Part shown: one piece after another, positions 36,156 through 53,793 of the stretch
Layout: every line of letters starts with the position of its first letter
Numbering within the stretch: position 1 is the first letter of the stretch
Origin: Propioniciclava flava
Lineage (GTDB): Bacteria > Actinomycetota > Actinomycetes > Propionibacteriales > Propionibacteriaceae
Direction: 5' to 3'
Length of the DNA: 64,000 nt
NCBI RefSeq assembly: GCF_004126535.1
Contig: NZ_PPCV01000004.1
Span: 248,001-312,000, forward strand
Notes under the pieces: generated by a model
What the model saw: the letters and a program-made list of their open reading frames with translations, nothing else
Databases searched by the model: none
What the model was told of the DNA's origin: nothing
Made by a program: the position numbers and the translations under genes

Positions 36156-36767
36156 ATGGCGCATGCCGACGTCCGAGTGACGGCGTCGCGCATCCTCGCC
36201 ACAGGGCTCGTCTTTGCTGCACTCGTCACGGGTTGCACGACGACGCCTCCTGCCGACATGCCCTCACGGGGGCCGGATGCGTCGGCGCCAGCAGGTCCGC
36301 TGCCCTCGGCTACCGGTACCTGGAGCCCACCGCCCTCCCACGCCCCGCAAGGCCCCCGGGCGCCCGCGCCGGTCGTGACGCGCAGCGCGTCCGCTGGGCA
36401 ACCGGTCACGTTCGACTCCGCAGCGACCGTGTCGCTCGATGCGCTGTCGGCGATCTCGGTCAGCGCCACCACCCCCGGGGAGATCACCGGCCCGGCCGTC
36501 AAGGTCACGGTCAAGGTCTCCAACGGATCGCAGCAGGCTCTGGACGTCTCCTCAGCGGTCGTCTCGGTGACCGCCGAAGATGGCACCTTGGGCATCCCCA
36601 CCACAGCAGGTGACCCCGCCCCCCTCGAGGGCGTCATCGCTCCCGGGCAGTCGGTCACCGGCTCCTATGTCTTCATGCTTGACCCAGCAGCGGGCCGAGG
36701 TGTCTTGGTGACGGTGAACTATGCCGCCGCCGAGCCCGTCGCCGTCTTTACCGGAAAGGTCACCTGA
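36156..36767 (+). CDS. Putative secreted lipoprotein
   Basis: The 203-residue product has a short signal peptide ending in a lipobox, ATGLVFAALVTGC, with the lipidated cysteine at about residue 27. A Pro/Ser/Thr-rich linker (about 28-85) follows, then a beta-rich domain with VKVTVKVSNGSQQALDVSSAVVSV and an APGQSVTGSYVF segment, resembling DUF4352-like immunoglobulin folds. It should be anchored on the outer face of the membrane. The PKD protein starts 4 bp after its stop, so they are co-expressed and may work together. ATG 36156 is chosen; GTG 36153 or a later ATG is possible. Confidence 0.75.
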   Translation: MAHADVRVTASRILATGLVFAALVTGCTTTPPADMPSRGPDASAPAGPLPSATGTWSPPPSHAPQGPRAPAPVVTRSASAGQPVTFDSAATVSLDALSAISVSATTPGEITGPAVKVTVKVSNGSQQALDVSSAVVSVTAEDGTLGIPTTAGDPAPLEGVIAPGQSVTGSYVFMLDPAAGRGVLVTVNYAAAEPVAVFTGKVT

Positions 36768-36771
36768 CCCG

Positions 36772-39700: not shown

Positions 39701-41451
39701 CCGCCAGCGCCAACGGGCTCGACGTCAGTGCCGATGCGTCGGCCACCACTGCAGCCGACGGCGCCACGGTGACCTATCGCTGGGAGTGGGGCGACGGTTC
39801 GACGAGCACCGGGGTGCGTGCGACGCACACGTACGCCAAGAAGGGCACCTACACGGTCAAGCTCACCGCGACCGATTCGCTGGGCGCCAAGGCGTCTGAC
39901 ACGACCGACGTTGCGATCAACGGCGTGGTCTATGTGGCTTCGGACACGTTCGGGCGCGACGTCTCCTCCGGATGGGGCGAAGCCGAGGTCGGTGGCCCCT
40001 GGTCGGCCGTGTTCGGAGCCGCCTCGGCGGCCTCGGTCGCGCAGGGGGTCTGCACGATCCGCCTCGATCCCGGAACGACGCGCAACATGGCGTTGCCCCA
40101 GGTGTCGGTGAAGGATTCCGAGACTCAGGTCACGTTCTCCCTCGACAGTGCGCCCGCATCCGGGGGCTCCTACGTCGGCGTCCTGGCGCGTCAGACGCAG
40201 GCGGGGGACTACACCGTTCGCGTCTGGATGCGGTCCGACGGCACCGCCTGGCTGGTTGCGCAACGCGGCTCGACGGTGTTGACCACCGTTCCGGTCGCCA
40301 AGCTGACCTGGGATGCCGGGACGCGGCTGCACCTGGCCGTTCAGGCCGAAGGCAGCACGCCGACGACCCTGCGCGCCTCGCTGTGGGCCGACGGCTCCGC
40401 CCAACCTGAGACGTGGCAACTGATCACCACCGACTCCACCGCGGGGTTGCAGGGGCCGGGGGCGAGCAGCGTGCACTTCGCCCGCGGAGGCTCGGCCGCA
40501 TCGGCCGCGACCGCGACGTTCGATGATTTCTCGGTGCGTGACCTCACGCAGGCCCAGGCCAATGAGCCACCCGTGGCCGCCTTCAGTTCCTCGGCATCGC
40601 AGTTGACCGTGTCGGTTGATGGCCGTGGATCCCGCGATCCCGACGGCACCATCGCGTCCTACGCCTGGGACTTCGGCGACGGCACGAAGGGGGACGGTGC
40701 GACTGCCTCTCACACCTACCGTGATGCAGGTACCTACACCGTCACCTTGACGGTGACCGATGCGGCGGGCGCGACGAACACGGTGAGCCACGCGGTGAGC
40801 GTGACCGCCCCGCCCGCAGGTGAGGAAGGCGTGCTGGCCAAGGATGCGTTCGAACGCACCACCACGTCGGGTTGGGGGCAAGCCGACCTTGGAGGCGCAT
40901 GGTCAGTGAGCGGCGGCTCTGCTGCGGCAGCATCCGTGAACGGGACGGAGGGTGTGCTCACGCTGGCACCCGGACAGACGCGGAACCTGACCTTGCCGGC
41001 CACCACGGTGCGCGACGCCACGATCTCCTTCAACGCCTCCCTCGATCAGGCACCATCGACCGGTACCACCTACTTCGGTGTGGTGGCGAGGCAGGTGGGC
41101 TCGGAGCAGTACCTGGTGAGGGTGTGGCTGCGCGCGGACGGCACAGTGTGGCTGGTCACTCAGCGCGGCGGCACGACTCTCAACGCCGCCCCCGTGAGCG
41201 GGGCGACCTGGAAGGCCGGTGACCGCTTCTCCGTCAAGGTTCAGGTGATTGGGGCGGGGACCACCACCTTGAAGGCCAAGGTGTGGTCTGCGGGAGCGGC
41301 TGAGCCAGGGGCGTGGCAGGTCACCTCGACCGACGCCACCGCGAGCCTGCAGAAGGCTGGCACCGTCGGTGTGCACGCCGCCCGCGGCAGCACAGCCCAG
41401 GCGAATGCCGTCATCGCGTTCGACGACCTCGTGGTGGCCACCGTCGAGTGA
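36772..41451 (+). CDS. Large secreted surface protein with repeat propeller-like, LamG and PKD domains
   Basis: The 1559-residue protein has a Sec signal peptide (about 1-39, ending in ASLARADA). Residues about 50-480 contain repeats such as RIYLGGSFSKVNGQDRWNIAAVDAATG and VYAGGLFTQANGVARKNLAAF, a beta-propeller-like pattern. About 490-590 is an Fn3/Ig-like region and 610-800 a LamG/concanavalin-like domain (STELWFKTTT, DGRWHHVVSTL, MRLYVDGALVAN). Four PKD domains begin near 804, 884, 972 and 1265 (SYAWDFGDGS, YSWNWGDGS). Two copies of a 200-residue SGWG module lie at 1053-1257 and 1353-1559. There is no LPXTG or transmembrane anchor, so it is secreted or bound through partners. Likely an adhesin or polysaccharide-binding protein; a role with the EPS is inferred from position. 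Confidence 0.82.
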   Translation: MSDTTRVRGLGRRFLALATVFAVIMTGALVGNASLARADAALPSPAPLKQRDDQLATADELPTVQINDGYVWAQTTIGNTVYAVGQFSNVRPAGAPVNTWLTPRSNVLAYDITTGDLVTSFAPQVNGVVKSVTASPDGKRIYLGGSFSKVNGQDRWNIAAVDAATGALVSGFAPSVGGSGVYALATVGDTVYAGGLFTQANGVARKNLAAFNTGNGALLSWAPTTDLQVDAMVTADANSKLIIGGRFYQVNAQVQRGLAALSPSSGEIITSWQAPNTIKNGWNSGGQAGLTGIFALSSDANGVYGTGWAYTSWSIGNLEGTFAAEASTGAIRWVADCHGDHYGVYSTGSVVYATSHAHACETVGMWPELTPRTYRYAEAYTTAVGGVLPRSGSLGSSYMDWSGTPSPSAYNWFPDFTVGNTSGLGQAGLSITGASGFISIGGEFGTVNGKPTQGLTRFSTSPPGGNKQGPRVPGETWTPSATSSVPGAAFVTVPANWDRDDLLLTYELRRQGSSDVLDSTTAESTWWNQPTVTLRDVTAPLGSTQTYTVTAKDAAGNAVTSSPTTVRIASGTVESYANDVLGDGASLFWRLGGDNRDLAGFNTPIYGLGVRSESPGAIVGSAQDTRASNFGGNSWGYVSSTSTAPVADYSTELWFKTTTSRGGKLIGYGNSRTGQSGSYDRHVYMRNDGRLSFGVNPPGGGTTITSAQGYNDGRWHHVVSTLGTSGMRLYVDGALVANDATVTRGEPYTGYWRVGGDNLSNWPGIPSSSYFSGSIDDVSVYPSALTLAQVQHHYAIGLGQTPPVAAFRSQVNAASVSFDASETTTAAGQSVGSYAWDFGDGSTSTEGPITQHTYATPGTYQVTLTVADRAGVRATVENAVTAEAPNVPPQAAFSLDTAGLTVTADGSASADPDGRIAGYSWNWGDGSPASTTVNPAHSYRAPGTYTVTLTVTDDRGATVQRTQTVTVTHQAPTVSFTASANGLDVSADASATTAADGATVTYRWEWGDGSTSTGVRATHTYAKKGTYTVKLTATDSLGAKASDTTDVAINGVVYVASDTFGRDVSSGWGEAEVGGPWSAVFGAASAASVAQGVCTIRLDPGTTRNMALPQVSVKDSETQVTFSLDSAPASGGSYVGVLARQTQAGDYTVRVWMRSDGTAWLVAQRGSTVLTTVPVAKLTWDAGTRLHLAVQAEGSTPTTLRASLWADGSAQPETWQLITTDSTAGLQGPGASSVHFARGGSAASAATATFDDFSVRDLTQAQANEPPVAAFSSSASQLTVSVDGRGSRDPDGTIASYAWDFGDGTKGDGATASHTYRDAGTYTVTLTVTDAAGATNTVSHAVSVTAPPAGEEGVLAKDAFERTTTSGWGQADLGGAWSVSGGSAAAASVNGTEGVLTLAPGQTRNLTLPATTVRDATISFNASLDQAPSTGTTYFGVVARQVGSEQYLVRVWLRADGTVWLVTQRGGTTLNAAPVSGATWKAGDRFSVKVQVIGAGTTTLKAKVWSAGAAEPGAWQVTSTDATASLQKAGTVGVHAARGSTAQANAVIAFDDLVVATVE
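39685..41448 (+). repeat. Tandem duplication of a PKD + SGWG module within the surface protein
   Basis: Copy 1 spans about residues 972-1257 and copy 2 about residues 1265-1559. Both have a PKD domain followed by a module with matching anchors: SGWG, TRNMALP/TRNLTLP, VGVLARQ/FGVVARQ, VRVWMRSDGTAWLV/VRVWLRADGTVWLV, AQRGSTVL/TQRGGTTL, and FDDFSV/FDDLVV. Protein similarity is obvious while the DNA has diverged, so the duplication is old. Confidence 0.8.
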
Positions 41452-41475
41452 TCTGTGGGGGGTTGTTCGTGAGAG

Positions 41476-41505
41476 CAGGGCGGGCCGTGAGTGCGGCTCG
41501 CCCTG
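41476..41505 (+). terminator. Strong hairpin between the PKD gene and the wzy-like gene
   Basis: A 12-bp stem (CAGGGCGGGCCG / CGGCTCGCCCTG, one G-T pair) with a TGAGTG loop lies 24 bp after the PKD stop and 28 bp before the next start. No T run follows. It may be a partial terminator that sets different levels for the surface protein and the membrane assembly genes. Confidence 0.55.
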
Positions 41506-41533
41506 ACCGTCATCGAAAAGGAACGGAGTAGGC

Positions 41534-42769
41534 GTGGGCGTGCTGCTGCTCGTGGGGCTTGCCTGCTCCGGCATCCTGTTGCTGTTTGTGATGCGGGCAT
41601 CTCCGCATGTCGCATTCGTCCTGTGGTGCGCGACCCTCTTCTTTGTGCCCGTGTGGATCGGGGTCTCGATCGGCCCGTTCTGGTCAGCGATAACCCTCAT
41701 GACGGGCGCCGCTGTGGTGGCGTTCGGCCGCAACCTCACGCTGCTTCCCGTCGATGGCGTGGTCGCCATCCTCGTCTTCATGATGGTGGCCCAGTACGGG
41801 CTCAAGTTGGCCTCGCTCGCCACCGTGGTGATGGCGATGTCGGAGTGGATCCTGCCCTACATCCTTGGACGCCTCGTGCTGACGCGTCTGCCACACGCGT
41901 CCTTCGTGGACATCTTCGCCGCCTTTGTGGTGATCGCGGCGCTCTTGGGCGTGGTGGAGTTCGTCACGCACACGAACGTGTTCACACGGATCAGCGGGCC
42001 CGTGTCGGTGTCGCTGTATGAAACGTGGGGCACGTTGCAGGAACGCGGCGGGAACCTCCGCGTCGAGGGAGCTTTTGGACACTCCATCGCTTACGGGGTG
42101 ACGCTGGCGATGGGAAGCGCCTTCGTGGTGGCGTCCCGGGCCAAAATCTGGATGAAGCTGATCGCTCTCTTGGTCATTACGGCGGCCGTCGCGGCGAGCC
42201 TGAGTCGACTCGGGCTGTTGACGCTGGCACTCACGGTGGGGCTGAGCCTGCTGCTGATGCCGGGGCTGGGGCGGCGCCTGCGCATCGGAATCTTGGTCTT
42301 GGGTGGGGGTGGGGCGGTCGCGCTCTTGCCCGCGCTCACGCGCATCCTTTCCGCGGCCGGGCAGGAGGCTTCGGGCAGTGCCGACTACCGCCTGGACCTC
42401 ATGTCGTTGCTCAAGGTGGTGCGTCCCTGGGGTTCCGCCGAGGATTTCGTGGGACTCACCACCGGGGGGTCCTATCTTGGGGTGTTCGCGCGTTCCATCG
42501 ACAATGCGGCGTTGGTGGCGGCGCTGCGGGTGGGATGGGTGGGAGCCGTCCTGCTCCTTGCGGTGGTGGGGTTCGCTGCGGTGCGCTTGCTGCGCCGCGG
42601 CGGAGCCAATCCGGCATCGATCGCCGTCGCGGCACAGATCCCCAGCCTGTTCACCGTCGCGTTCATCACACAGTTCGCCGTCGCGTTCTGGTTCCTTGTG
42701 GGGGTCGCGGTCTCCTGGCCGGTTCTAGGCCCGCTGACTAGGGGATCAAGGCGGAGGACGAATGAATAA
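41534..42769 (+). CDS. O-antigen ligase/Wzy-like polysaccharide polymerase
   Basis: The 411-residue polytopic protein has about 11 helices and the Wzy/WaaL pattern of a large outer loop between late helices (about 265-315), here ILSAAGQEASGSADYRLDLMSLLKVVRPWGSAED. An earlier loop, SLYETWGTLQERGGNLRVEGAFGHSIAYG, is also typical of the Wzy_C/O-antigen ligase superfamily. It would polymerise lipid-linked repeat units at the outer membrane face. GTG 41534 has GGAACGGAG upstream. Sequence identity in this family is low, so the call rests on topology and neighbours. Confidence 0.8.
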   Translation: MGVLLLVGLACSGILLLFVMRASPHVAFVLWCATLFFVPVWIGVSIGPFWSAITLMTGAAVVAFGRNLTLLPVDGVVAILVFMMVAQYGLKLASLATVVMAMSEWILPYILGRLVLTRLPHASFVDIFAAFVVIAALLGVVEFVTHTNVFTRISGPVSVSLYETWGTLQERGGNLRVEGAFGHSIAYGVTLAMGSAFVVASRAKIWMKLIALLVITAAVAASLSRLGLLTLALTVGLSLLLMPGLGRRLRIGILVLGGGGAVALLPALTRILSAAGQEASGSADYRLDLMSLLKVVRPWGSAEDFVGLTTGGSYLGVFARSIDNAALVAALRVGWVGAVLLLAVVGFAAVRLLRRGGANPASIAVAAQIPSLFTVAFITQFAVAFWFLVGVAVSWPVLGPLTRGSRRRTNE

Positions 42770-42783
42770 CTGCGTCTTGTGGC

Positions 42784-42789
42784 TATTAT
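42784..42789 (+). promoter_or_regulatory. Candidate -10 element upstream of the wzc-like gene
   Basis: TATTAT is the best -10 match in the glycan locus. It lies in the 104-bp gap after the wzy-like gene. The leader would contain a 5-bp hairpin (TGCCT / AGGCA, 42789-42803) and a 10-bp perfect palindrome CGTCCGGACG (42816-42825). No good -35 is seen. Confidence 0.4.
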
Positions 42790-42873
42790 GCCTGTCGGAG
42801 GCACCCGCCCAAACTCGTCCGGACGGGCATTCACCCACCCCCGGGGTGCTTACCGCAATGGAGGAACTTCGAC

Positions 42874-44256
42874 ATGATGGCTGATTCCTCGTGGACCCTT
42901 GCCCGCATCTGGGCAGCCCTGAAGAAGATGTGGCTCGTCATCGGTCTCGCGACCGTTCTCGGCGCTGGCATCGCCTTCGGAATCTCACTCTCCACGACCC
43001 CCACCTACCTCTCACGAGCCACCCTGTACTTTTCGATCGGTCACGGAAACAGTGGCTCGGACCTGAACCAAGGCACGACCTACGCCCAAAACCAGATGCT
43101 GTCCTTTGCGCAGCTAGCTACCTCATCCCGCGTGCTTGACCCCGTCATCCAGAAGATGGGTCTCGACACGACGACGACGGCTTTGGCTCGGGATATCGAC
43201 ATCGTCACCCCTAACGACACGCTGATTTTGGAGATCCGAGCCACGGCCGCGTCTCCCGACAAGGCCGCGGCGCTGGCGAATGCGGTCGCCGCGAGCCTCT
43301 CCACGGTCGTCGACGACTTGTCTCCCAGTACCTCCGCCGGTAGTCCGTCCATCTCGGCGTCCCTGGTGGACAAAGCGGTTCCCCCTGAGTTTCAAACATC
43401 CCCCAACAAGCCACGGGACACGATCCTGGGTGCCCTGGTGGGTGCGGTCGTCGGCGTGGTTCTCAGCATCGTGTGGAGCCTGTTCGACAGCCGCATCCCC
43501 TCCGAAGCTGTCCTTCGGGGCGCCGTCGATGCCCCGACGCTGGGATCGGTCACGCGTGTCCCCGGTGCCGCCGGGAACGTGGGCCTCATCGTGACCCGTG
43601 ATCCCTTGGGGCGAACGTCGGAGGAGTTCCGCCGGATTCGATCGGCGCTGTCGTATGCGGCCGTCGACCGACGCATGCGGCGGATCTTGATCACGTCGTC
43701 CTCCCCTGGGGAAGGCAAGTCGACGTTTGCCGCCAACCTGGCGCTCACGCTCGCGGCGCTCAAGAGCAGGGTGCTGCTGATCGACGCCGACTTGCGGCGT
43801 CCCCGGATCGCCGACGAGTTCGGCATCGAGGGAGCGATCGGCTTGACGACCGTCCTCGTGGGAGAGGTGTCGTTTGCGGACGCCAAGCTCTCGCGCCCTG
43901 GCACCACGCTGGATATCTTGCCTGCGGGGGCCGTCCCGCCGAATCCGGCTGAGTTGCTGACATCGGACGCCATGCAGGCCCTGCTGGAGGAGGCATCGGT
44001 CGACTACGACTACGTCGTCCTCGACGCACCGCCGATCTCGAGTGTCGCTGACGCGAACCTGATGTCTCCCCTCGTGGACGGTGCGATCGTCATCGTGGAC
44101 GCGATGAAGACGCATCGATCGCAGTTGTCGGCGGCGTTGCAAAGCTTCCAAGCTGCTGGTGGACGCGTGATCGGTCTGGTCTTGAACCGGGCCCGGCGTC
44201 CCCGTCACACCGATGTCTACTACGCGGAGTGGGCCGCGCGGAACGCGAAGCAGTGA
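42874..44256 (+). CDS. Wzz/Wzc-type chain-length determinant and tyrosine autokinase
   Basis: The 460-residue protein combines an N-terminal Wzz domain (helices near residues 18-38 and 185-205, outer region between) and a C-terminal BY-kinase. Walker A is SSSPGEGKST (275-284), Walker A' is VLLIDADLRRP (300-310) and Walker B is YVVLDAPP (about 378-386). The C-terminus ends in DVYYAEWAARNAKQ, so the two tyrosines 11-12 residues before the end are the only obvious autophosphorylation sites. It controls polymer length and export in Wzy pathways; the phosphatase gene two genes downstream is its likely opposite. GGAGG precedes the start (42874, or 42877). Confidence 0.9.
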   Translation: MMADSSWTLARIWAALKKMWLVIGLATVLGAGIAFGISLSTTPTYLSRATLYFSIGHGNSGSDLNQGTTYAQNQMLSFAQLATSSRVLDPVIQKMGLDTTTTALARDIDIVTPNDTLILEIRATAASPDKAAALANAVAASLSTVVDDLSPSTSAGSPSISASLVDKAVPPEFQTSPNKPRDTILGALVGAVVGVVLSIVWSLFDSRIPSEAVLRGAVDAPTLGSVTRVPGAAGNVGLIVTRDPLGRTSEEFRRIRSALSYAAVDRRMRRILITSSSPGEGKSTFAANLALTLAALKSRVLLIDADLRRPRIADEFGIEGAIGLTTVLVGEVSFADAKLSRPGTTLDILPAGAVPPNPAELLTSDAMQALLEEASVDYDYVVLDAPPISSVADANLMSPLVDGAIVIVDAMKTHRSQLSAALQSFQAAGGRVIGLVLNRARRPRHTDVYYAEWAARNAKQ

Positions 44257-44287
44257 TGCCGGTGCGTCATCCTGCTGGGGGCTGCAG

Positions 44288-45814
44288 GTGCCTCGCGTGA
44301 GCGATGGTTTGGCTCATTCCGCGGTACGAGGAGCGACCGTCACGCTCACGGCCCAGGGCGCGCGCATCCTCTTGCAACTGCTGTCGATCGTCGTGCTGTC
44401 TCGGCTCCTCACGCCGCACGACTACGGCTTGTTGACCATCGTCTTGGTGATGATCGGGATCGGTGAGATCTTCCGCGACTTTGGCCTGACCTCGGCCAGC
44501 GTCCAGGCCCCCGAACTGAGCTCAGCACAGCGGGACAATCTGTTTTGGATCAACACCGGCATTGGGGCCGTCCTGGCTTGCCTGATGTTCCTTGCGGCGT
44601 GGCCCATCCAGGCGGTGAGTCAGCAGCCGGAACTCCTCGGCATCGCGCAGGCGTTGTCCGCTATGTTCCTGTTCAATGGCCTGGCAACCCAATACCGCGC
44701 ACAGCTCATGCGCAGCCTGCGTTTTGTGGCGCTCGCGATCGCGGACATCGCTGCTGCGACCCTGGCCTTGATCGTGGCCATCATCGCCGCGTACCAGGGT
44801 GCGGGCTACTGGGCGCTGGTGGCTCAGCAACTCACCTCCGGGCTGGTGCTGCTCGCCGCTTTGAGCATCCAGGGTCGCTGGCTTCCTGGCTGGTATTCGC
44901 GCAGCGCACCGGTGCGGGACATGCTGGTCTTTGGGTGGAATCTGGTCGCCACGAACCTCATCTCTTACGGGGCCTCACAGATCGACACGATTCTGGTCGC
45001 GTCCCGCTTCGGGACGACGTCGGTGGGCGTCTACAACCGCGCCTACCAACTCGTGATGACGCCGCTGTCGCAGATGCGCTCGCCGTTGACGAACGTGGCC
45101 TTGCCCATCCTGTCGCGCATTCAGGACGACAAGGAGCGCTTTGACGCCTTCGTCATCGGGGGACAGCTAGCGCTGGGTTACTGTTTCGGCATCCCTTTGC
45201 TGCTGGTGGCCGGGCTGGCGGATCCGTTGGTGCAGATCCTGCTCGGTCCGCAGTGGGCGCAGGCGGCGCCGTTCCTGCGGTGCTTCGCGATTGCGGGCCT
45301 GTTATCGACGCTGGCTTTCGTGGGCTATTGGACGTATGTGGCCCGGGGGCTAGCCAATCAACTGTTCCGCTACACGATGGTGGCCACGGCGATCAAGGTG
45401 ATCTGCGTCGTGGTCGGCTCCTTCTTCGGGTTGGAGTGGATCGCCGTGGGATTCATGCTGGCCCCGGCGCTGGAGTGGCCCTTGTCGCTGTTTTGGCTGT
45501 CGCGCATTACGTCTTTCCCGGCGCGAAGCCTGTACGGGGGAGCTTTCCGTATCCTAACCGTGGCCGGATTGATGGGCGGGGTCGCTTGGCTCGGATCTAT
45601 GCTGGTGGCTGATGCGAACCCCTGGGCTCAGGTGGGGGTGGGCGTGGGGGTGGCTCTGGTGGAGGCTCTTCTTCTGCTCGCCGTACCGTCCTTGCGGCGC
45701 GATCTTGGGACGCTGATGGGGTTCGCGCGTCTCGTCGTGAAGCGTCGAGGTTCCCGCAGTGAGGGGGCAGGTGTGCCGGAGCGATCCGCGAGTGACAGGG
45801 GGAGGAGTCGTTGA
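44288..45814 (+). CDS. Wzx-like lipopolysaccharide/EPS flippase (MOP superfamily)
   Basis: The 508-residue membrane protein has about 12-14 helices and the PST/WzxC-type start: GATVTLTAQGARILLQLLSIVVLSRLLTPHDYGLLTIVLVMIGIGEIFRDFGLTSASVQAP spans residues 12-73. The AYQLVMTPLSQMRSPL segment is also typical. It would flip lipid-linked repeat units across the membrane. GTG 44288 has GGGGG 6 nt upstream; GTG 44297 is also possible. The charged C-terminal tail (about 480-508) is cytoplasmic. The stop overlaps the phosphatase ATG (TGATG). Confidence 0.9.
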   Translation: MPRVSDGLAHSAVRGATVTLTAQGARILLQLLSIVVLSRLLTPHDYGLLTIVLVMIGIGEIFRDFGLTSASVQAPELSSAQRDNLFWINTGIGAVLACLMFLAAWPIQAVSQQPELLGIAQALSAMFLFNGLATQYRAQLMRSLRFVALAIADIAAATLALIVAIIAAYQGAGYWALVAQQLTSGLVLLAALSIQGRWLPGWYSRSAPVRDMLVFGWNLVATNLISYGASQIDTILVASRFGTTSVGVYNRAYQLVMTPLSQMRSPLTNVALPILSRIQDDKERFDAFVIGGQLALGYCFGIPLLLVAGLADPLVQILLGPQWAQAAPFLRCFAIAGLLSTLAFVGYWTYVARGLANQLFRYTMVATAIKVICVVVGSFFGLEWIAVGFMLAPALEWPLSLFWLSRITSFPARSLYGGAFRILTVAGLMGGVAWLGSMLVADANPWAQVGVGVGVALVEALLLLAVPSLRRDLGTLMGFARLVVKRRGSRSEGAGVPERSASDRGRSR

Positions 45815-48315
45815 TGTCACGCTTTGTTCTTTTTGTGTGTGCCCAGAACGTGTGTCGCTCGCCCCTGATGGAGACCGTGTTTCGTGAGGTCGCCCCACCT
45901 TCGTGGATGATCCGCAGCGCTGGCGTAGCGGCGCTGCCGGGGCAGCCGATGTGTGCGGTCGCCGGCGAGCAGGTCGCGGCGGGTCTGGGCTGGGGTGCCC
46001 CCGTTCCCCTTTCCCAACAGCCGTACGCTCCCGTAGCTGCGGGGTACGAGACTGCCTCACGGGAGCCCGCTCCCGAAGTTCAGGCGCCTGATGTTCCCTC
46101 TCCCGGGGCTGCACCCGAGCCCAACGTCGGGCAGGCACTCCTGCCGCCCTGGGCGGGGTGGGTCTCGGCCGCGGTCCAGCGAGAGGCCGTCCCCGCTGAG
46201 GAGCAGAACCCCGAGACGGACTCAGCAACAGTCGCTCTCCCGCTCCTTGCCGAAGGACACGAGTCGTCACCCGAGCAGGCTCACGAGGCCGAGGCCAGCG
46301 TCACATCGCTGTTGTCTTCGCCCGATGAGGGCCTGGACCTCACGGGTGAGGTGCGAAGCGAAGAGGAGCCTGAGCCCCTCGACGACACCGAACTCCTGGA
46401 GGAGACCGTTTCCGTTGAAGCGGCGGACCTCGTTGACGCGGCAGATTCCGTTGATCCGCATGGCGAGGAGGGTCCCGTCGACTGCGCCGATGCGGAGGCG
46501 CCGAAGGACGCGGCTTCACCAGCGCCCGCCGCGACGGAGGCCACCCAGTGGCCCGATGGGGTGGTGTCGGTCTGGGGCCCGCTGGCCGCTCCCGGGAGCG
46601 AGAAGCCCCTGGCTGGTGACACCTTGCCGGAGACACTCGGCGCTGAGGATGCGGAGCTCACCGAGATCCTTGACTTCGCCATCCCCGCCTTCGAACGGGT
46701 GGATCTGGCGCTGCCAGAGGGCCCCCTCGCCTTGGTCGAGGTGCCCAGCATGACGGCTCCCACGACAGCCGATGACGAGGAGCCCTGGCGTCCGCGCCGC
46801 GCCATGGCGCGCGCGTTCGAGCCTGATGAGTTCGAGGACGATGAGGAGGTGGATGTTCGCGTCGGGAGCCGTGCTTGGATCGAGCCCGACAGCGACCCCG
46901 CCTCCGATCCGGTTGCCGAGGGCAACCCCGAGCCAGATGCCGAGACCGCGTCTGATGACGAGGCCGAGATTGCTTCTGATGACGGGGCCGAGGCCGCTTT
47001 CGACTCAGAGCCCGAAGTAGAGGACACCATCCGGCTCGACCTCACCCAGAGGAAGGCGCTGATCACCGTGCAGGCGGCGCTGGAGGCACAGCGGACTCCG
47101 GCGATCGCGATCGACGTGGTGCCTGCGGCTCTAGAAGGCGCGCCCAGCACGGCCCTGGTGCTGGTCAGACGGTCATCGGTGCCAGCACGCGTGAGTGTGC
47201 CGCCGCGCAACGAACCGTGGTGGGATCTGCCGAAGCCCGGGGCGGTCACCACCGTGGTGGCGCTGACCGAGGTTGACGTCGTGATCTGGTCCGAGGATTC
47301 CCACGACCCGGAGGCGCCCGGTGAGGACGGAGACGACGTCCTGACGGAAGAGCGCTCCCAACGGGAAGCCGAACCTCACCTCACCGCAGCCTTGGAGGAG
47401 GATGCTGGGTCCGCCGACGCGGTGACCGTCGCCGAAGAGGCTGCCGAGCCCACTGACGCGGGCGTGGCGAGCGAGCGGGACGCCGAACACGGCGACGCTA
47501 CGGAGCGTGAGATCCTCGCCGACGACCACACCGACCAGACCGAGGTCGAGGGTCGAGACGACACGAGCGAGAACGCTGACGCCGACGAATCCCGCGAGCG
47601 CGACGAACCGTGCGAGAGCGAGGAGTCGTGCGACAGCGACGTCGAGATCACCGTGGTCATGGCCAGCGACGTGATCGCCGAGGAGTTCCGTCGTCCTGAC
47701 GCGGTCACGCAGGCCGTCACACGGGAGGAACCCGAGCATGAGGCGGCCTCGGATCCCACCGAGGAGCAGCAGGCGGAGACTGAGGCGCCATCAGGCGTCG
47801 ACGAGACCCGCCCGCCCGAGTCGTGGGGTACGTGGGGTCGGAGTGTGGACCCGGGGCAGCCCCATCGCTCTGCGGTGCTCCAGGCCGAGGACGTGAAGCA
47901 CGCGGACATCATCATCGTGGCCTCACGCGCCGAACGGTCGGAGGTGGCGCTGCTTGATCCGCTGGCGCGGGCACGAACCTTCACGCTCCGTGAGGCGCTG
48001 GCTTTGGGCGCGGCCCCGATCGTGATGGAGGAAGTGGATGAGGTCCGCGAGGTGCCGAGCGTCGACGCCAGCAACCCCATCAGCCTGTACGCGGCGATCC
48101 TGGATCGCCGCCGCGGCTCCGTTACCCCGCCCCAGCCCACGGGCCCGTGGTGGAAGCGCCGTGCACGCACCGATCCGTGGGACATCCCCGATGTTCATCA
48201 AGCTCCCGAGCGCGTGCACGTCTCCGGATTGAGGTCGGTGGCGCGAGAGACGCGCGAACTGGCTTCCCGCATGACCGTCTTTGCCCGCAGCATGGGCGAC
48301 GAGGTCACGCCCTAA
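45814..48315 (+). CDS. Low-molecular-weight protein tyrosine phosphatase split by a large acidic insertion
   Basis: The 833-residue protein starts as a LMW-PTP: LFVCAQNVCRSPLMETVF with nucleophile Cys9 and Arg15 (C-x5-R-S), then MIRSAGVAALPGQPM. Normally about 35 residues lead to the second half; here about 620 residues rich in Asp/Glu/Ala/Pro/Val intervene. The fold then resumes at HRSAVLQAEDVKHADIIIVASRAERSEVALLD (684-715), followed by RARTFTLREAL. The C-terminal DPWDIPD (787-793) holds candidate general-acid aspartates. In Wzy loci such phosphatases dephosphorylate the Wzc kinase. GGGGGAGGAG precedes ATG 45814, which overlaps the flippase stop. The last 11 bp overlap the convergent GT4 gene. 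Confidence 0.85.
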   Translation: MSRFVLFVCAQNVCRSPLMETVFREVAPPSWMIRSAGVAALPGQPMCAVAGEQVAAGLGWGAPVPLSQQPYAPVAAGYETASREPAPEVQAPDVPSPGAAPEPNVGQALLPPWAGWVSAAVQREAVPAEEQNPETDSATVALPLLAEGHESSPEQAHEAEASVTSLLSSPDEGLDLTGEVRSEEEPEPLDDTELLEETVSVEAADLVDAADSVDPHGEEGPVDCADAEAPKDAASPAPAATEATQWPDGVVSVWGPLAAPGSEKPLAGDTLPETLGAEDAELTEILDFAIPAFERVDLALPEGPLALVEVPSMTAPTTADDEEPWRPRRAMARAFEPDEFEDDEEVDVRVGSRAWIEPDSDPASDPVAEGNPEPDAETASDDEAEIASDDGAEAAFDSEPEVEDTIRLDLTQRKALITVQAALEAQRTPAIAIDVVPAALEGAPSTALVLVRRSSVPARVSVPPRNEPWWDLPKPGAVTTVVALTEVDVVIWSEDSHDPEAPGEDGDDVLTEERSQREAEPHLTAALEEDAGSADAVTVAEEAAEPTDAGVASERDAEHGDATEREILADDHTDQTEVEGRDDTSENADADESRERDEPCESEESCDSDVEITVVMASDVIAEEFRRPDAVTQAVTREEPEHEAASDPTEEQQAETEAPSGVDETRPPESWGTWGRSVDPGQPHRSAVLQAEDVKHADIIIVASRAERSEVALLDPLARARTFTLREALALGAAPIVMEEVDEVREVPSVDASNPISLYAAILDRRRGSVTPPQPTGPWWKRRARTDPWDIPDVHQAPERVHVSGLRSVARETRELASRMTVFARSMGDEVTP
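45997..47850 (+). other. Segment encoding the acidic, low-complexity insertion in the phosphatase
   Basis: Residues about 62-679 are dominated by E, D, A, P, S, T and V with few hydrophobic blocks, and contain runs such as DDEAEIASDDGAEAA. They are predicted by eye to be disordered and strongly negative. One more ordered patch lies near RKALITVQAALEAQRTPAIAIDVVPAAL (nt about 47050-47130). The frame stays open for about 1.85 kb with normal GC-rich codon use, so it is not a decaying region. Confidence 0.75.
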
Positions 48316-49504
48316 ACGAGACAGCATCTCGCGTCGATGTGTGCGCGGCCCCGATCGGGCCTGCCGTCTCAGCCACCACCTGGGCCACTGCGCGGCCGTA
48401 GGCTGCGGGGTCGTGTCGATGGATTGCCTCGGCGCGCGCAGGCTCCAGGCCGGGAAGTATCGCGTCCCACGAGTCGGCGATGCGAGCGACCGCCGTGGCC
48501 AGTGCGTCCGCGGAACCGGCAGGGACGCCGAAGGCAGTCGCATAACCGTGCGTGGCCTCCCGAAGCCCGGAGGTCTCACTGACGACGACGGGGCGGGCGG
48601 CCAAGATGCCCTCCACCGCCGTGTTCCCGAAGGGCTCATCGAGCCGGGAGGGGACCACCACAATGTCGGCGGCGGAGAGGCCGGGCCACACGTCATCGAC
48701 GAAACCGTGCAAGGTGACCGCGTCGGTGAGGTCGCTGGAGTGGATGAGTGAGAGCAGTTCCGCTTCGTACCATTCATAGCCCGGGAACACGGCGCCGTAG
48801 AGGTCGAGAGTGGCAGGCCTGCCCGCATCGCGAAGGAGGCGCAACGCTGACACGATGAGGTCGACGCCCTTGCGAGGAGAGAGGCGCCCGATGTAGGCGA
48901 GCCGGGGACCCGGCACCAACTCCGGCCTAGGTGGAGTGACGGTCTCTGGCCCCGGGACGGCATTGAGGATCACCTGAGATCGTGCTGCGAGGCAGGCGAA
49001 GGAGTCCGCCATCACCGCGAGGCTGAACCGACTATTGACGATGATGCGTTGCGCCGCCAAGAGTGGCGCATAGAGGACCCGCTTGAGCCAGGGGCGGGCC
49101 TGAGACTCGCCTTCATGCACATGCACGACGGTGGGGACGCGCCGCAACCGGGCCACCAACGGCCAGACCGGGATCGTGATCGTATTGACCAACACGACAG
49201 AGGGGGAGTGCCTGCGCAGCGCACCCCATGCGCCGATGACGCCCTTCGCCGCTGTGGTGAGCAATTCACCCCACCCGCGCGGACGCAGGAGGCGCTTGCG
49301 CAAAACGAACTGGGGGGCGAACTCCACCTCGGCGCGCTCCGCGGTCAGGGCAGCCACGAGCGGCCCTGGCGCCGGAAGCACCACGACGACGCGCCACCCC
49401 TCTCTGATCAGTCCCGTCACCGATCCCAGGAGGACGCGGTCCGAGCCATACAGTTCCGCCCCGGGGTGGACCACCAGCACGGTGTCAGGCGACGCCGCCT
49501 TCAC
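48305..49504 (-). CDS. GT4 family glycosyltransferase
   Basis: The 399-residue GT-B protein starts DTVLVVHPGAELYGSDRVLLGSVTGL, has VVHVHEGESQARPWLKRVLY, and the donor-binding half with RLAYIGRLSPRKGVDLIVSALRLL, VTLHGFVDDV and PSRLDEPFGNTAVEGILAARPVV (the E-x7-E motif). It is a retaining transferase, specificity unknown. GTG 49504 overlaps the upstream GT4 stop by 4 bp, so it belongs to the minus-strand unit led by the sugar transferase. The end overlaps the phosphatase gene by 11 bp. Confidence 0.88.
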   Translation of the reverse strand: MKAASPDTVLVVHPGAELYGSDRVLLGSVTGLIREGWRVVVVLPAPGPLVAALTAERAEVEFAPQFVLRKRLLRPRGWGELLTTAAKGVIGAWGALRRHSPSVVLVNTITIPVWPLVARLRRVPTVVHVHEGESQARPWLKRVLYAPLLAAQRIIVNSRFSLAVMADSFACLAARSQVILNAVPGPETVTPPRPELVPGPRLAYIGRLSPRKGVDLIVSALRLLRDAGRPATLDLYGAVFPGYEWYEAELLSLIHSSDLTDAVTLHGFVDDVWPGLSAADIVVVPSRLDEPFGNTAVEGILAARPVVVSETSGLREATHGYATAFGVPAGSADALATAVARIADSWDAILPGLEPARAEAIHRHDPAAYGRAVAQVVAETAGPIGAAHTSTRDAVSFRA

Positions 49505-50724
49505 GCCGTGGGGTCCGTCGAACGGTGAGCGTGTCGCGCAAGGGGGTGAATGCTGGCGCCACGAGCCAAACGCCGCGCGAGCCGCTCGTAGTCGTCGCAC
49601 ACGCCAGCCCAGGTGAACACCGACGAGACGCGCCGACGACCGGCATCCGCGAACTCCTGAGCCCGTGCGGGCTCTGTCTCGCTGGCGCGGAATTGAGGGG
49701 CCAGGTCGGCTGCGGTCGCAAAGAACCACCCCTGCCCGGCCAGGACTTCACGATTGAAGTTGACGTCGAAGGCCACCACTGGCGTCCCCGCACCCATCGC
49801 GCGCAGCAGCGAAGGGTTGGTTCCGCCGACAGAATGCCCGTGCACGTAGGTGTAGGCGTGAGCATAAAGCGCGTCCAGTGCGTCTTGGTCGTAGACCGCG
49901 CCGAGAAGGTGGATGCGCGGATCAGCCGCCGCGACGGTCTCGATGCGGCGCGTGTAGTCAGCGCTGTAGGGGGCGGCACCGACGACCACCAGAGGCTTGG
50001 TCGACTCGCTCGCGTGATAGCCCTCGACGATCTCCAGCACATGGTTCTCCGGCTCGAACCTCGCCACGACGAGGTGATACTCGCCCGGAGTGAAGCCCAA
50101 AGCGCGCACGGGAGCCGCATCGAGTTGCTCGATCACGGGGGCGCCATAGCGGATCAGCTCAGTCGGGACGCCGAACTCGGCGTCGTAATAGTCAGAGATG
50201 CCAGGAGCGTCCGCGATCAGAGCATCAGCACTACGGACGCCGAACCCTTCGGCCCACCGGTAGTACGACTTGCCGCGTGCCCCCCATTTCGAACGCTTCC
50301 ACTCGATGCCATCCATGTGGAGCGCCACGGGGATGCCGCGGGCGCGCAGCAGGGGCACGAAGGGAGAGTTCGCCGCGTTGAAGACGAAAGCGGCGTCGGG
50401 TCGGTGGCGACTCACGGCATGCAGGACCGACAGCCCCGTATGGCTCAGGGTCTCGATCTGCTTGGCTGGCGCGGCGGGAAGGTGGACCAGATCCATGCCG
50501 AGGTAGGAACGCTGCCGGGAGGCGGCACCGCGCGTGTACACCGTGACGGAGTGCCCACGTTCGACGAGGCGGCGTCCAATCTCCTCAACCGCAGTCTCGA
50601 AGCCGCCGTAGGCGGCGGGCACGCCGCGCGTGCCGATCATGGCGATGGTGAGCGAAGCCGTGGGCTCCTGACCGGAGCCCGCCTGCGAGGTGTCGGTCCA
50701 CAAGGACAGATCCTGGATGGCCAT
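49501..50724 (-). CDS. GT4 glycosyltransferase with DUF1972 N-terminus (rhamnosyltransferase-like)
   Basis: The 407-residue protein has the DUF1972-type start IAMIGTRGVPAAYGGFETAVEEIGRRLVERGHSVTVYTR, then HMDGIEWKRSKWGARGKSYYRWAE, and a GT4 C-terminal half with LVVARFEPENHVLEIVEGY, YVHGHSVGGTNPSLLRAMGAGTPVVAFDVNFNREVL. Such proteins typically add the second sugar, often L-rhamnose, to an undecaprenyl-linked primer in EPS pathways. This fits its place directly after the initiating transferase (gap of 4 bp). ATG 50724. Confidence 0.9.
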   Translation of the reverse strand: MAIQDLSLWTDTSQAGSGQEPTASLTIAMIGTRGVPAAYGGFETAVEEIGRRLVERGHSVTVYTRGAASRQRSYLGMDLVHLPAAPAKQIETLSHTGLSVLHAVSRHRPDAAFVFNAANSPFVPLLRARGIPVALHMDGIEWKRSKWGARGKSYYRWAEGFGVRSADALIADAPGISDYYDAEFGVPTELIRYGAPVIEQLDAAPVRALGFTPGEYHLVVARFEPENHVLEIVEGYHASESTKPLVVVGAAPYSADYTRRIETVAAADPRIHLLGAVYDQDALDALYAHAYTYVHGHSVGGTNPSLLRAMGAGTPVVAFDVNFNREVLAGQGWFFATAADLAPQFRASETEPARAQEFADAGRRRVSSVFTWAGVCDDYERLARRLARGASIHPLARHAHRSTDPTA

Positions 50725-50728
50725 GAGA

Positions 50729-52309
50729 TCAGTAGGCTCCTTCGGGCTTCAGCATGACGCCGACGGTGCGCCACATGATGCGCAGGTCGTCGAGCACCGA
50801 CCAGTTCTCCACATAGTGCAGGTCGAGGCGGACGCTCTCATCCCAGGAGAGATTGCTGCGGCCACCCACCTGCCAGGGGCCGGTGATCCCTGGCTTGATG
50901 TAGAGGCGTCGGTAGACCCGACCGTCGTAGGTGGTCACCTCGCTGGGCAGGGGCGGACGCGGACCGACCACGCTCATGTCGCCGATGAAGACGTTCCAGA
51001 ACTGGGGCAGTTCATCCAGGGAGTGCTTGCGCAGGATCCGGCCCACATGCGTGACGCGTGGATCGTTACGCATCTTGAACAAGGGCCCCGAGCCTTCGTT
51101 CTGGGCGAGCAGAAGGGCGCGCTCGGCGTCTGCGCCCACCCGCATCGAACGGAACTTCAGCATGTCGAACTCGCGCCCGTCGCGACCGACGCGCTTTTGG
51201 CGATAGAAGACGGGGCCGCCGTCGCCGAGTTTGATGATGATCGCGACCACCAGGGCGATCGGCAGCGTAACGAGCAGGGCCAACGACGACACGACGAGGT
51301 CGAAAGCTCGTTTGACGACGTGGGCGCCACCTTCGAAGGTGGGGATTTTCACCTGGATGAGGGGGAGCCCTTCCAGGGGGCGAAGCGAGATGCGTGGGCC
51401 CGCCACGTCCGCGAGCCGCCCCCCGATGACCAGTTCAGCGGCCGTCCCGACCATCTGCTGGCTGAGGCGCTGAACGAAGTCGGGATCCTCGTCGGGCTGG
51501 CTTGCCACGATGATGGCGTCGGCGCCGAGCCGGTGGGCTGTCGCGGCCGCGTCGTACACCGACCCCACGACCGGGTAGGCGTGCCCATCGACGGCAATCG
51601 AGGAGACGGGGCGATCCGACAAGCTGGCACCGACGACCTGATAGCCGAGTGCCCAGGTGGTGCCCAGGCGGCGCAGGACGAAAGCGACTTCGTCGTGGGC
51701 GCCGACAACGAAGGCGCGGGAAACGTACTCGCCGAAGCGGCGGCGGCGCAGCAGCCAGCGACGCCACAGCCAGCGTGACGCCAGCAAGACCAAGAGGCCA
51801 AAGGGAAGGGACACCAGCAACTGGGTCCGCAAGCCGGGCCACTGGAACACGATGAAGGCGATGGCCAGCAGTCCGAAGGCGAAGCCGGTGGCCTGCGCCA
51901 CGCGGGTGTATTCGGTCACGCCGCTGCCGAAGAGTTCCGACTCCCTGGTGCCGAAGGCGCTCAGCGCGACGAGCCACCCGACGGAGGTGATGAGCGGAAT
52001 GCGGGCGATGATCCCGGGATCTTCGGCGATGAGGTTCGGGTCAAGCATCTGGAGTCGCAGGACGGTCGAGAACACGCAGAACGCAATGATGATGGCGGCG
52101 TCGCTGATCCACAGATTCAGGCGGTAACGACGCTCCCACCTACGTCGGCGCTCGAGCACCGGAGACGTCCGAGGGGAGCGACGTGCCTCGCTCGCATACC
52201 CACTTGACCGCAGCGGCACCTCCGACCGGGGCGTGGCAACAGCCCGGAAAGCGGACGTCAAGTCGCCACCGGCGCGACGGTGTTCTTCGGGTATCAAGCG
52301 AGTCGTCAT
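50729..52309 (-). CDS. Exopolysaccharide polyprenyl-phosphate sugar-1-phosphate transferase (WcaJ/CpsE type)
   Basis: This initiating enzyme loads the first sugar-1-phosphate onto undecaprenyl phosphate. The 526-residue protein has a basic N-terminal tail, four helices (about 65-195), a CoA-binding-like domain (AFVVGAHDEVAFVLRRLG), one more helix, and the catalytic bac_transf domain: VFYRQKRVGRDGREFDMLKFRSM, SGPLFKMRNDPRVTHVGRILRKHSLDELPQFWNVFIGDMSVVGPRPPLPSEV and KPGITGPWQVGGRSN. A -35/-10 pair lies upstream. It leads the minus-strand unit (initiator, two GT4). Confidence 0.94.
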   Translation of the reverse strand: MTTRLIPEEHRRAGGDLTSAFRAVATPRSEVPLRSSGYASEARRSPRTSPVLERRRRWERRYRLNLWISDAAIIIAFCVFSTVLRLQMLDPNLIAEDPGIIARIPLITSVGWLVALSAFGTRESELFGSGVTEYTRVAQATGFAFGLLAIAFIVFQWPGLRTQLLVSLPFGLLVLLASRWLWRRWLLRRRRFGEYVSRAFVVGAHDEVAFVLRRLGTTWALGYQVVGASLSDRPVSSIAVDGHAYPVVGSVYDAAATAHRLGADAIIVASQPDEDPDFVQRLSQQMVGTAAELVIGGRLADVAGPRISLRPLEGLPLIQVKIPTFEGGAHVVKRAFDLVVSSLALLVTLPIALVVAIIIKLGDGGPVFYRQKRVGRDGREFDMLKFRSMRVGADAERALLLAQNEGSGPLFKMRNDPRVTHVGRILRKHSLDELPQFWNVFIGDMSVVGPRPPLPSEVTTYDGRVYRRLYIKPGITGPWQVGGRSNLSWDESVRLDLHYVENWSVLDDLRIMWRTVGVMLKPEGAY

Positions 52310-52456
52310 TCATTCCCCCACGTTCCGCGTCGGCCGCAAGCACAGTGCGCGCGGGTCCATCGCGACCGGCGGTGAGGAACACAAAAGACACGGGCCTAGT
52401 GACGAGTGGGCCGTGACGTGCTAGCCCCCGAGGGGCGGGATGTGACGCTTCTAGGG

Positions 52457-52485
52457 ATAGTAGCGTGCTGCGCCATACTCGGCAA
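52457..52485 (-). promoter_or_regulatory. Promoter of the minus-strand glycan unit
   Basis: On the minus strand TTGCCG (52485-52480) and TACTAT (52462-52457) are separated by exactly 17 bp, the best promoter match in the window. The leader would be about 140 nt before the ATG at 52309. Together with the terminator at 52514-52551, this accounts for the 296-bp gap 52310-52605. Confidence 0.6.
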
Positions 52486-52513
52486 CGGGGAGCAATACCC
52501 CTCCCGGGTGACA

Positions 52514-52551
52514 AGGAAAAACGCCCCGGTGCCTCCCCGCGACACCGGGGC
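52514..52551 (-). terminator. Rho-independent terminator of the M20 hydrolase gene
   Basis: Reading the minus strand, GCCCCGGTG / CACCGGGGC form a perfect 9-bp stem with an 11-nt loop (52551-52523), followed by GTTTTTCC. It starts 54 bp after the amidohydrolase stop and just before the promoter of the glycan unit. Confidence 0.85.
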
Positions 52552-52605
52552 TGGGCACGATGCAAGGCCCAGCGAAAAGCAGTGAAGACGCCCCAGGCGG
52601 GGGCC

Positions 52606-53781
52606 TTAGAACCGGACGAAGTCGGCCGCCGCAACGTAGCTGGCGGCGAAGGTCACCGCACACAGCCGCAAGGCGTCGCGACCCGGCAGGAACTTTGCGT
52701 GATGCAAGCCGACCCCCTCGACGGGTCCGGTCCCAATGAAGCTCATGAGGGAAGGCACCGAGTCGCCATACTCGGAGAAGTCGTCCGAGCCGCATGACCG
52801 GAACGGCTCGCCTGCCACCGGGATACCGAGGCCCGTCAGGGCGGCGTCCGTCCTTTCCACCAGGGGTTCACTGTTGACCAAGGCGGGGCCGCCGCGCCGG
52901 AAGGCAACCGAGGCGGATGCCCCCCGCGCGAAGGCGAGGCCCTCGGCTAGTCGCGTCATGGCGCCTTGCAACGCCGCGCGATCCGCCTCGTGGAACGTCC
53001 GCATCGTTCCGGTACACGTGGCCGTGTCGGCGATGACATTGTCGGCGGTGCCGCCGCGGATGGTGCCCACCGACACCACGCTGGAGTGAATCGGGTTGAT
53101 GACCCGTGCCTGCGTCTCGGGCAGTGCGGCGATGATCGTGGCCAGGGTGGTGATGGGGTCAACCGCGAGGTGCGGGTAGGCGCCATGCCCACCCCGGCCA
53201 GTGACGGTGATCTGGAAGGTATCGAACGCCGCATTGACCGGCCCGGCACCAGTCGACACGACCCCGCGCTCGACCGCCGGCTGGACGTGGACCCCCACCA
53301 TCGCGGCGATGTTCTCGTCTTCCAGCAGGCCGGACGCGACCACGTCGGTCGCACCAGGGGGGTTGCACTCCTCGCGCGGCTGCAAGATCGGAACCAGCCC
53401 CACCGGGAGGGGGGCGTCGGCGTCCTGGATGGCGGCGAGCAGGGCCCACAAGCCGGCGATGTGGACGTCGTGCCCGCAGGCATGCATGATGCCGCGGCGC
53501 TGGGAGGCCCACTCGACCTCCGTGGCCTCGGTGATCGGGAGGGCGTCGAGTTCTGCACGCAGGCCCACCGCAGGGCCGGCAGGGCCCAGTCGCCCGAAGG
53601 CACCCGTCTCCGCGACCGGAAGCCAGTCGATCCACGGAGCCGCAGCCGTCACGGCGTCGCGGGTGTCGGATTCGTCGCCGCCGAGGTGCGGATCAGCGTG
53701 AATCGCACGCCGTAAGGATGCGGCTTCGGGGAGGACGGCATCGATTCCGGCAACGAGGTGGGCGAGAAGGTCTTCGGTCAC
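52606..53781 (-). CDS. M20-family metallo-amidohydrolase
   Basis: The 391-residue cytosolic enzyme has the M20D pattern: metal-binding ACGHDVHIAGL, LRAELDALPI, LQPREECNPPGA (catalytic glutamates), GRGGHGAYPHLAVDP with the dimerisation-domain His, and EPFRSCGSDDFSEYG near the end. It is like N-acyl-amino-acid or hippurate hydrolases; the substrate is unknown. The start is GTG 53781, 6 nt after TAGGGT, so it may be leaderless even though it follows nnr by only 9 bp. Confidence 0.9.
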   Translation of the reverse strand: MTEDLLAHLVAGIDAVLPEAASLRRAIHADPHLGGDESDTRDAVTAAAPWIDWLPVAETGAFGRLGPAGPAVGLRAELDALPITEATEVEWASQRRGIMHACGHDVHIAGLWALLAAIQDADAPLPVGLVPILQPREECNPPGATDVVASGLLEDENIAAMVGVHVQPAVERGVVSTGAGPVNAAFDTFQITVTGRGGHGAYPHLAVDPITTLATIIAALPETQARVINPIHSSVVSVGTIRGGTADNVIADTATCTGTMRTFHEADRAALQGAMTRLAEGLAFARGASASVAFRRGGPALVNSEPLVERTDAALTGLGIPVAGEPFRSCGSDDFSEYGDSVPSLMSFIGTGPVEGVGLHHAKFLPGRDALRLCAVTFAASYVAAADFVRF

Positions 53782-53787
53782 CCGTTC

Positions 53788-53793
53788 ACCCTA
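53788..53793 (-). promoter_or_regulatory. Candidate -10 element for the M20 hydrolase gene
   Basis: TAGGGT (minus strand) lies 6 nt before GTG 53781 and overlaps the nnr stop codon TAG. Independent leaderless transcription is possible beside read-through from nnr. Confidence 0.4.

Follow-up and report, generated by a model that had tools for sequence, protein, structure and literature searches.

Low-molecular-weight protein tyrosine phosphatases (LMW-PTPs) of the Wzb type, such as Escherichia coli Wzb and Vibrio vulnificus VvWzb (PF01451), have chains of 149 - 168 residues and are encoded in operons with a bacterial tyrosine kinase (BY-kinase); Wzb dephosphorylates the C-terminal tyrosines of Wzc, a relation established for the families. 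Here we describe a gene in a 64,000 nucleotide stretch of Propioniciclava flava (contig NZ_PPCV01000004.1, positions 248,001 to 312,000, hereafter the window) whose product is like Wzb in its P-loop, predicted fold, general-acid Asp and operon with a BY-kinase, but has ~620 residues inserted after alpha2.

Other described proteins resemble this design in part. PPM1G (PP2C gamma) is likewise a phosphatase with an acidic domain, which lies within its catalytic domain, although it is an unrelated metal-dependent Ser/Thr phosphatase. Its acidic-rich region binds alpha-catenin and is cited as a substrate-binding domain (available portion of PMC6776900). Kinetoplastid ArsC-like proteins, whose fold is related, carry two long insertions that are conserved and, as far as the available portion of PMC2175518 goes, differ in having no catalytic Cys; the likeness meant here is the presence of insertions. 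VvWzb itself has a 4-residue insertion in its W-loop, a different loop from the one interrupted here (available portion of PMC7948962). No LMW-PTP with an acidic, disordered or long insertion was found among the papers listed in searches of the open-access literature of PubMed Central, outside which most subscription journals lie, so that absence from print is not shown. An earlier note on this DNA, made from the sequence without database searches, knew of no described phosphatase of such design; that must be qualified by the three partial precedents above.

One predicted phosphatase domain in two parts

All five frames other than that of the gene (Table 1) are broken across it. The P-loop signature C9-x5-R15-S16 is present near the N terminus of the encoded protein, and hmmscan against Pfam finds PF01451 only at residues 5-46 (E 1.1e-8, 35.8 bits against a cut-off of 23.2). 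That Pfam and NCBIfam recognise the N part only would favor a reading of two unrelated proteins that a fusion or an assembly error has brought together. We find this scarcely credible, because a family profile gives complementary matches on both sides of the insert, because a syntenic relative (L111, below) has both parts in one protein of 217 residues, and because the gene reads as a single open frame whose codon usage in the insert and the C half resembles that of the host, on a 315 kb contig of a 3.0 Mb genome in 26 contigs.

The family profile was built from 130 relatives (134 unique sequences minus window-derived and over-long ones). Its model positions 11-64 match residues 5-56 (independent E-value 3e-16) and positions 67-197 match residues 678-826 (5e-19); the two matches are collinear and complementary, with a full score of 107 bits versus 8.8 for the best of 400 shuffles, and the gap between them amounts to 2 model positions in the family versus ~620 residues in the window protein. 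V8, C9, N12, C14, R15, S16, G37 and D793 are identical in 61/61 rows of an alignment that includes the window row (A2), where the conservation of the P-loop is by construction, the relatives for profile, alignment and tree having been chosen by P-loop pattern, and the count for D793 is not. These results bear out what the earlier note had read from the letters, namely a P-loop C9-x5-R15 in the first part, the rest of the same fold in order at the C-terminal end, and a candidate acid Asp near 787-793, which is D793. Its insert of ~620 residues also stands, with borders (61 and 684) that were off by a few residues from those found here (57-677).

AlphaFold2, run on alignment A2 for the full 833-residue protein, gives a predicted local distance difference test score (pLDDT) of 91 - 97 for residues 1-50, 93 - 98 for 681-770 and 81 - 97 from 770 to 830; the score is below 50 for 599 of the 833 residues and for most of the insert. 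Secondary structure follows the order beta1 (3-9), alpha1 (15-26), beta2 (31-37), alpha2 (48-55), insert, beta3 (699-702), beta4 (722-724) and a long last helix (799-831), which in the model places the insert in the alpha2-beta3 loop. In LMW-PTPs, beta1, beta2 and beta4 are followed by the P-, W- and D-loops (available portion of PMC7948962), and in a parallel sheet the alpha2-beta3 loop would therefore lie on the opposite edge, away from the active site. Isolated beta-bridges appear in the full model at residue 45 and at 685/688. Those at 685 and 688, together with one beta3 residue, are seen only with the N half and are missing from a model of the C half by itself; this apparent dependence on the N half fits packing of the two halves and is no proof of it. 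Of the 50 rows that Foldseek lists against the PDB, 49 are LMW-PTP/ArsC folds, with V. vulnificus Wzb first; the remaining row is a trypanosome mitoribosome chain.

Profile and predicted fold together support reading the protein as a single LMW-PTP domain interrupted by an insertion. From the sequence we infer that the enzyme is catalytically intact, with phosphotyrosine phosphatase activity. It reaches 20.3 and 23.9 bits with the Wzb equivalog models NF007520 and NF008486, short of the curated cut-offs of 243 and 247, and on these scores it is Wzb-like by locus and not a Wzb equivalog.

Insert-free relatives and occurrence of the insert

The metagenome-assembled genome 'Propionibacterium sp. 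isolate 3-JJ_aug_S1_071' (locus L111) has the gene order of the window, wzy - BY-kinase - wzx - PTP (all on the + strand in the window), with an ordinary PTP. Kinases are 57.7% identical over 444 residues, wzx genes 58.4%, and the PTPs 40% either side of a gap that holds 633 residues in the window protein versus 15 in L111; in a tree of the C half (61 rows) window and L111 are sisters with support 99/90. The earlier note had argued for insertion against gene fusion, and had allowed that homologues might show the two parts as unrelated separate proteins. Because the syntenic L111 PTP holds both parts in one short protein, the comparison refutes fusion and supports insertion, and by parsimony the insert would have arisen after the split from L111's line.

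Window and L111 fall in a clade of 14 rows (support 99/96 in the 61-row tree) with the acid motif D-x-H, not D-P-x, for which we coin the label DxH actinobacterial LMW-PTPs (L111, Micropruina KQZ13P-5, Amnibacterium, Naasia and others). In this subfamily, the window PTP included, D-[VAG]-H replaces D-P-Y and another His stands seven residues further on; the rows were chosen by their D-x-H letters, so that only the later His (alignment A3) is independent. Ahead of the aligned C-half border there are 63-69 residues in the other 13 rows of the clade in A2 versus 677 in the window protein. A second genome of the genus (G005) and Micropruina KQZ13P-5 also have insert-free PTPs, 217 and 205 residues long, encoded immediately behind the kinase. 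A kinase lies within 4 kb of the PTP in 6/10 DxH loci versus 36/70 others, which is nothing special to the subfamily. Outside this comparison, a PTP at L199 (G569) shares the window's unusual P-loop, CAQNxCRSPLM.

Terminal fusions look different: the window PTP is itself interrupted, whereas the fusions L256 and L022 keep the PTP match in one stretch. In L256:1204-3156 (G074) a single protein carries RmlC (dTDP-sugar epimerase, PF00908), RmlD (PF04321) and LMW-PTP (PF01451) parts, L255 and L258 being alike by eye, which suggests that in a related genus a phosphatase is fused to an enzyme of the rhamnose pathway. L022:1108-3063 (G040) is an APS kinase (adenylylsulfate kinase) - LMW-PTP fusion in a 652-residue frame.

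The insert alone, searched against 197 family genomes, matched its own genome only (0/196 others), a search that an insert diverged beyond recognition, or one present in other strains, would escape. With the full-length protein, 20 of 57 genomes (own included) gave a match, 19 besides its own, and among the matches listed all lie within the PTP halves, one beginning at residue 668. Plasmids searched by tblastn with the protein gave one matching record, over residues 1-45 only, and a contig scan with the protein gave 126 pattern stretches, none of them confirmed. The insert is thus known from one genome, and selection on it therefore cannot be measured.

The C-half profile found matches in 208 of 394 class genomes and 120 of 198 family genomes. 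Thirty class-genome loci were inspected. A P-loop stands a short way upstream in 28 of them; the window itself makes one more, and the last (L217; G698, C2:100780-101220) has a degenerate P-loop, CGSDACLA, and is possibly a pseudophosphatase. The family loci inspected were the window (L196), L226-L254 and 12 long-frame stretches (L255-L266); each of the 41 besides the window (41/41) has a single domain match, L240 being clipped at one end and without its P-loop. This search for other LMW-PTPs with long insertions, which the earlier note had proposed, yielded no second split LMW-PTP among the 30 class and 41 family loci inspected from the matches listed. In 13 genomes of the genus PF01451 gives 51 rows, and in four of these the match spans under 75 of its 144 positions: the window, L062 and L063, where the frame loses the C half, and G001 C1:2304598. 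Elsewhere in the P. flava genome (L002:1480-3009, contig C24), an open frame has rhodanese-like and ArsC/LMW-PTP-like parts that come after a stretch beside other-frame glycoside-hydrolase-like sequence (by eye); the locus looks rearranged.

The acidic arm and its possible action

The insert (residues 57-677, 1863 bases) is a single open frame. Over residues 61-670 it contains 10.2% D and 15.4% E (25.6% together), 15.7% A, 10.5% P, 0.7% K (5.3% K+R) and 0.3% Y, for a net charge of -124. G+C by codon position (.787/.505/.78, residues 61-670) and the usage of synonymous codons (scores per codon of -1.05 in the insert, -1.01 in the C half, -1.07 in the kinase and, the poorest, -1.23 in the 60 codons of the N half) identify it as a resident coding stretch. 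Among 432 open reading frames (ORFs) with coding-like codon statistics, drawn from the window and 400 kb of its own genome, the split PTP ranks first both for acidity over a 100-residue window and for the length of its acidic run (415 residues versus 229 for the next), and among the ORF rows listed it has the largest negative net charge. The acidity is uneven, residues ~401-500 being less acidic and more hydrophobic; the earlier description of an uninterrupted acidic stretch is right as to frame and net charge, but the stretch is not uniformly acidic.

The same note had proposed a disordered arm, and AlphaFold2 agrees: the insert is predicted to be disordered, with one low-confidence helix at residues 410-425. 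FoldIndex-type scores fall below zero at 15 of the 24 points between 76 and 651, yet they do so too at 776 and 801, where the C half is folded, and the disorder call therefore rests on AlphaFold2. Anchoring to the wall, a further suggestion, found no support, since the protein opens directly with the P-loop strand and the insert has no transmembrane-like segment (best 19-residue hydropathy of the protein 1.46). The position inside a domain would suit an intron or intein, removed from RNA or protein, but we consider this very improbable: the insert stays open in frame throughout, no intein, Hint or homing-endonuclease domain is among the Pfam matches up to E 0.01, Rfam gives no match at gathering scores in 40000-54000, and no intein-like border residues are seen by eye.

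Part of the insert's history can be read in tandem arrays. Tandem Repeats Finder places 3 of the 4 arrays with score >=50 in the 64 kb window inside the 1.86 kb insert (3/6 at score 40). Codon-shuffled inserts have a mean of 0.065 arrays and never reach three (0/200), nor do those shuffled within 40-codon blocks (mean 0.085, 0/200). Each of the three periods is divisible by three, and the arrays encode degenerate 6- and 8-residue acidic units. Three in-frame arrays therefore indicate that the insert grew at least partly by slippage or in-frame duplication of short acidic units, over ~165 of its 1863 bases. Longer protein-level self-repeats were not found in the insert (best score 57, where 20 shuffles averaged 55 and reached up to 69), short DNA arrays being below the reach of this test. 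Derivation of the insert as a copy of the PTP was rejected, the C-half match score of 51 being reached by 57/300 shuffles and the N-half score of 28 by 233/300.

A serious rival to any function of the arm is near-neutral growth, in which a length-tolerant loop of an ordinary LMW-PTP enzyme acquired a disordered stretch by slippage or capture, with no function of its own. We think this quite possible. It is favored by the concentration of 3/4 arrays in the insert, far above the shuffle mean, by the lack of any match to the insert in 196 other family genomes, and by a loop that by fold topology would lie away from the active site. The arrays cover only a small part of the insert, however, the rest being without repeats or PTP likeness beyond shuffles, and 610 codons would stay open by base composition alone with a chance of ~3e-6, so that the frame has been maintained, if only for the sake of the C half.

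The explanation we put forward, tentatively and as falling just short of probable, is an active LMW-PTP acting on the BY-kinase of its operon, with a lineage-specific disordered acidic arm that may tune the encounter with the kinase. The kinase, two genes upstream, is of the Wzz/CpsD type (TIGR01007, 157.7 bits against a cut-off of 108.05), its C-terminal tyrosines stand in the context ...DVYYAEW..., and by analogy with Wzb and Wzc it is the likely substrate. Strand and overlaps suggest that kinase and phosphatase share the operon, as the earlier note had implied in naming the Wzc kinase. As Wzb does for Wzc, the phosphatase would reset the kinase's C-terminal tyrosines. The alpha2-beta3 loop would have expanded in one lineage by ~620 disordered acidic residues, at least partly by in-frame duplication, and its place opposite the P-, W- and D-loops would let the domain still fold and work. 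The polyanionic arm would most likely act elsewhere than at the active site: as an electrostatic or entropic bristle, it would alter the meeting with the membrane-bound kinase or another basic partner; likeness to the acidic region of PPM1G hints at a substrate-binding role. What the analysis shows is the interrupted domain with its conserved catalytic residues, a coding insert with tandem arrays and predicted disorder, the operon with a BY-kinase, and a syntenic relative free of the insert; activity, substrate and arm action are what we infer. A stronger version, in which the 620-residue arm determines the place and time at which the phosphatase meets the membrane BY-kinase, as a built-in device for electrostatic recruitment or exclusion that controls polysaccharide assembly, convergent with the acidic substrate-binding region of PPM1G, seems to us unlikely.

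Several observations weigh against the proposal of an active phosphatase with a tuning arm. The insert is seen in one genome, and growth by slippage requires no function. A matched pair of acidic arm and basic kinase tail was considered and rejected, the tail being no more basic than in insert-free L111 (charge +4 in both). Folded alone as a control, the C half already folds confidently (mean pLDDT 89.3, predicted template modelling score 0.82), so that pLDDT by itself cannot prove packing of the halves. Foldseek matches span only ~60 columns, the best with E 1.2e-3 and none below 0.001.

The charge of the arm also invites autoinhibition or charge sensing, in which the arm folds back onto a positive active-site crevice until a basic partner, metal ions or salt displace it. 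A net charge of -124 and the positively charged crevice bottom that LMW-PTPs share (available portion of PMC7948962) would suit it; the arm's only two tyrosines both lie close to its start and hardly make a pseudo-substrate, and we hold this improbable. If the arm works, a disordered insertion within a minimal 150-residue fold would be a new control of a bacterial tyrosine phosphatase, and hence of the BY-kinase cycle behind polysaccharide export. A neutral arm would still leave two syntenic genes, one carrying the insert and one lacking it, which together with the visible tandem arrays would show how a disordered region can grow inside an enzyme domain, a natural test system.

Locus and neighboring genes

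A GGAGGAG-type ribosome site lies immediately 5' of the phosphatase ATG, which overlaps the stop codon of the preceding wzx as TGATG; the phosphatase is therefore probably translated together with wzx. Features of the locus are collected in Table 1.

Table 1. Features of the split phosphatase gene and its surroundings (window coordinates)
Feature	Position	Strand	Basis or remark
Wzy-like gene	41534..42769	+	name from position and similarity to L111 gene; no match in Pfam or NCBIfam
Wzz/CpsD-type BY-kinase (polysaccharide tyrosine autokinase)	42874..44256	+	TIGR01007 above cut-off, PF02706 Wzz; tail ends ...DVYYAEWAARNAKQ
Wzx-type flippase	44213..45814	+	PF13440/PF01943; first-start ORF, true start may be further in
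Split LMW-PTP gene	45814..48315	+	833 codons plus stop, ATG start; zero in-frame stops
N half of LMW-PTP domain, residues 1-56	45814..45981	+	beta1, P-loop, alpha1, beta2, W-loop, alpha2; model 11-64
P-loop CAQNVCRS, predicted nucleophile C9, R15	45838..45861	+	sequence, alignment of 61 rows
Acidic, predicted disordered insert, residues 57-677, alpha2-beta3 loop	45982..47844	+	profile gap, composition, AlphaFold2
Tandem array, period 18, 2.5 copies	46410..46454	+	Tandem Repeats Finder; residues 199-214
Tandem array, period 24, 2.5 copies	46939..46999	+	Tandem Repeats Finder; residues 376-396
Tandem array, period 18, 3.3 copies	47583..47641	+	Tandem Repeats Finder; residues 590-610
C half of LMW-PTP domain, residues 678-833	47845..48312	+	profile model 67-197, predicted fold
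Predicted general-acid Asp D793 in D-V-H motif	48190..48192	+	alignment; other relatives mostly D-P-Y/I/F/W
Undecaprenyl-phosphate sugar transferase (Bac_transf)	50729..52309	-	PF02397

Upstream of these genes, window positions 36721-41451 encode a very large secreted-looking protein with PKD and laminin-G domains (Pfam). Very large secreted-looking proteins also stand near the polysaccharide operon in two more genomes (L060:883-6651 and L061:15198-19964).

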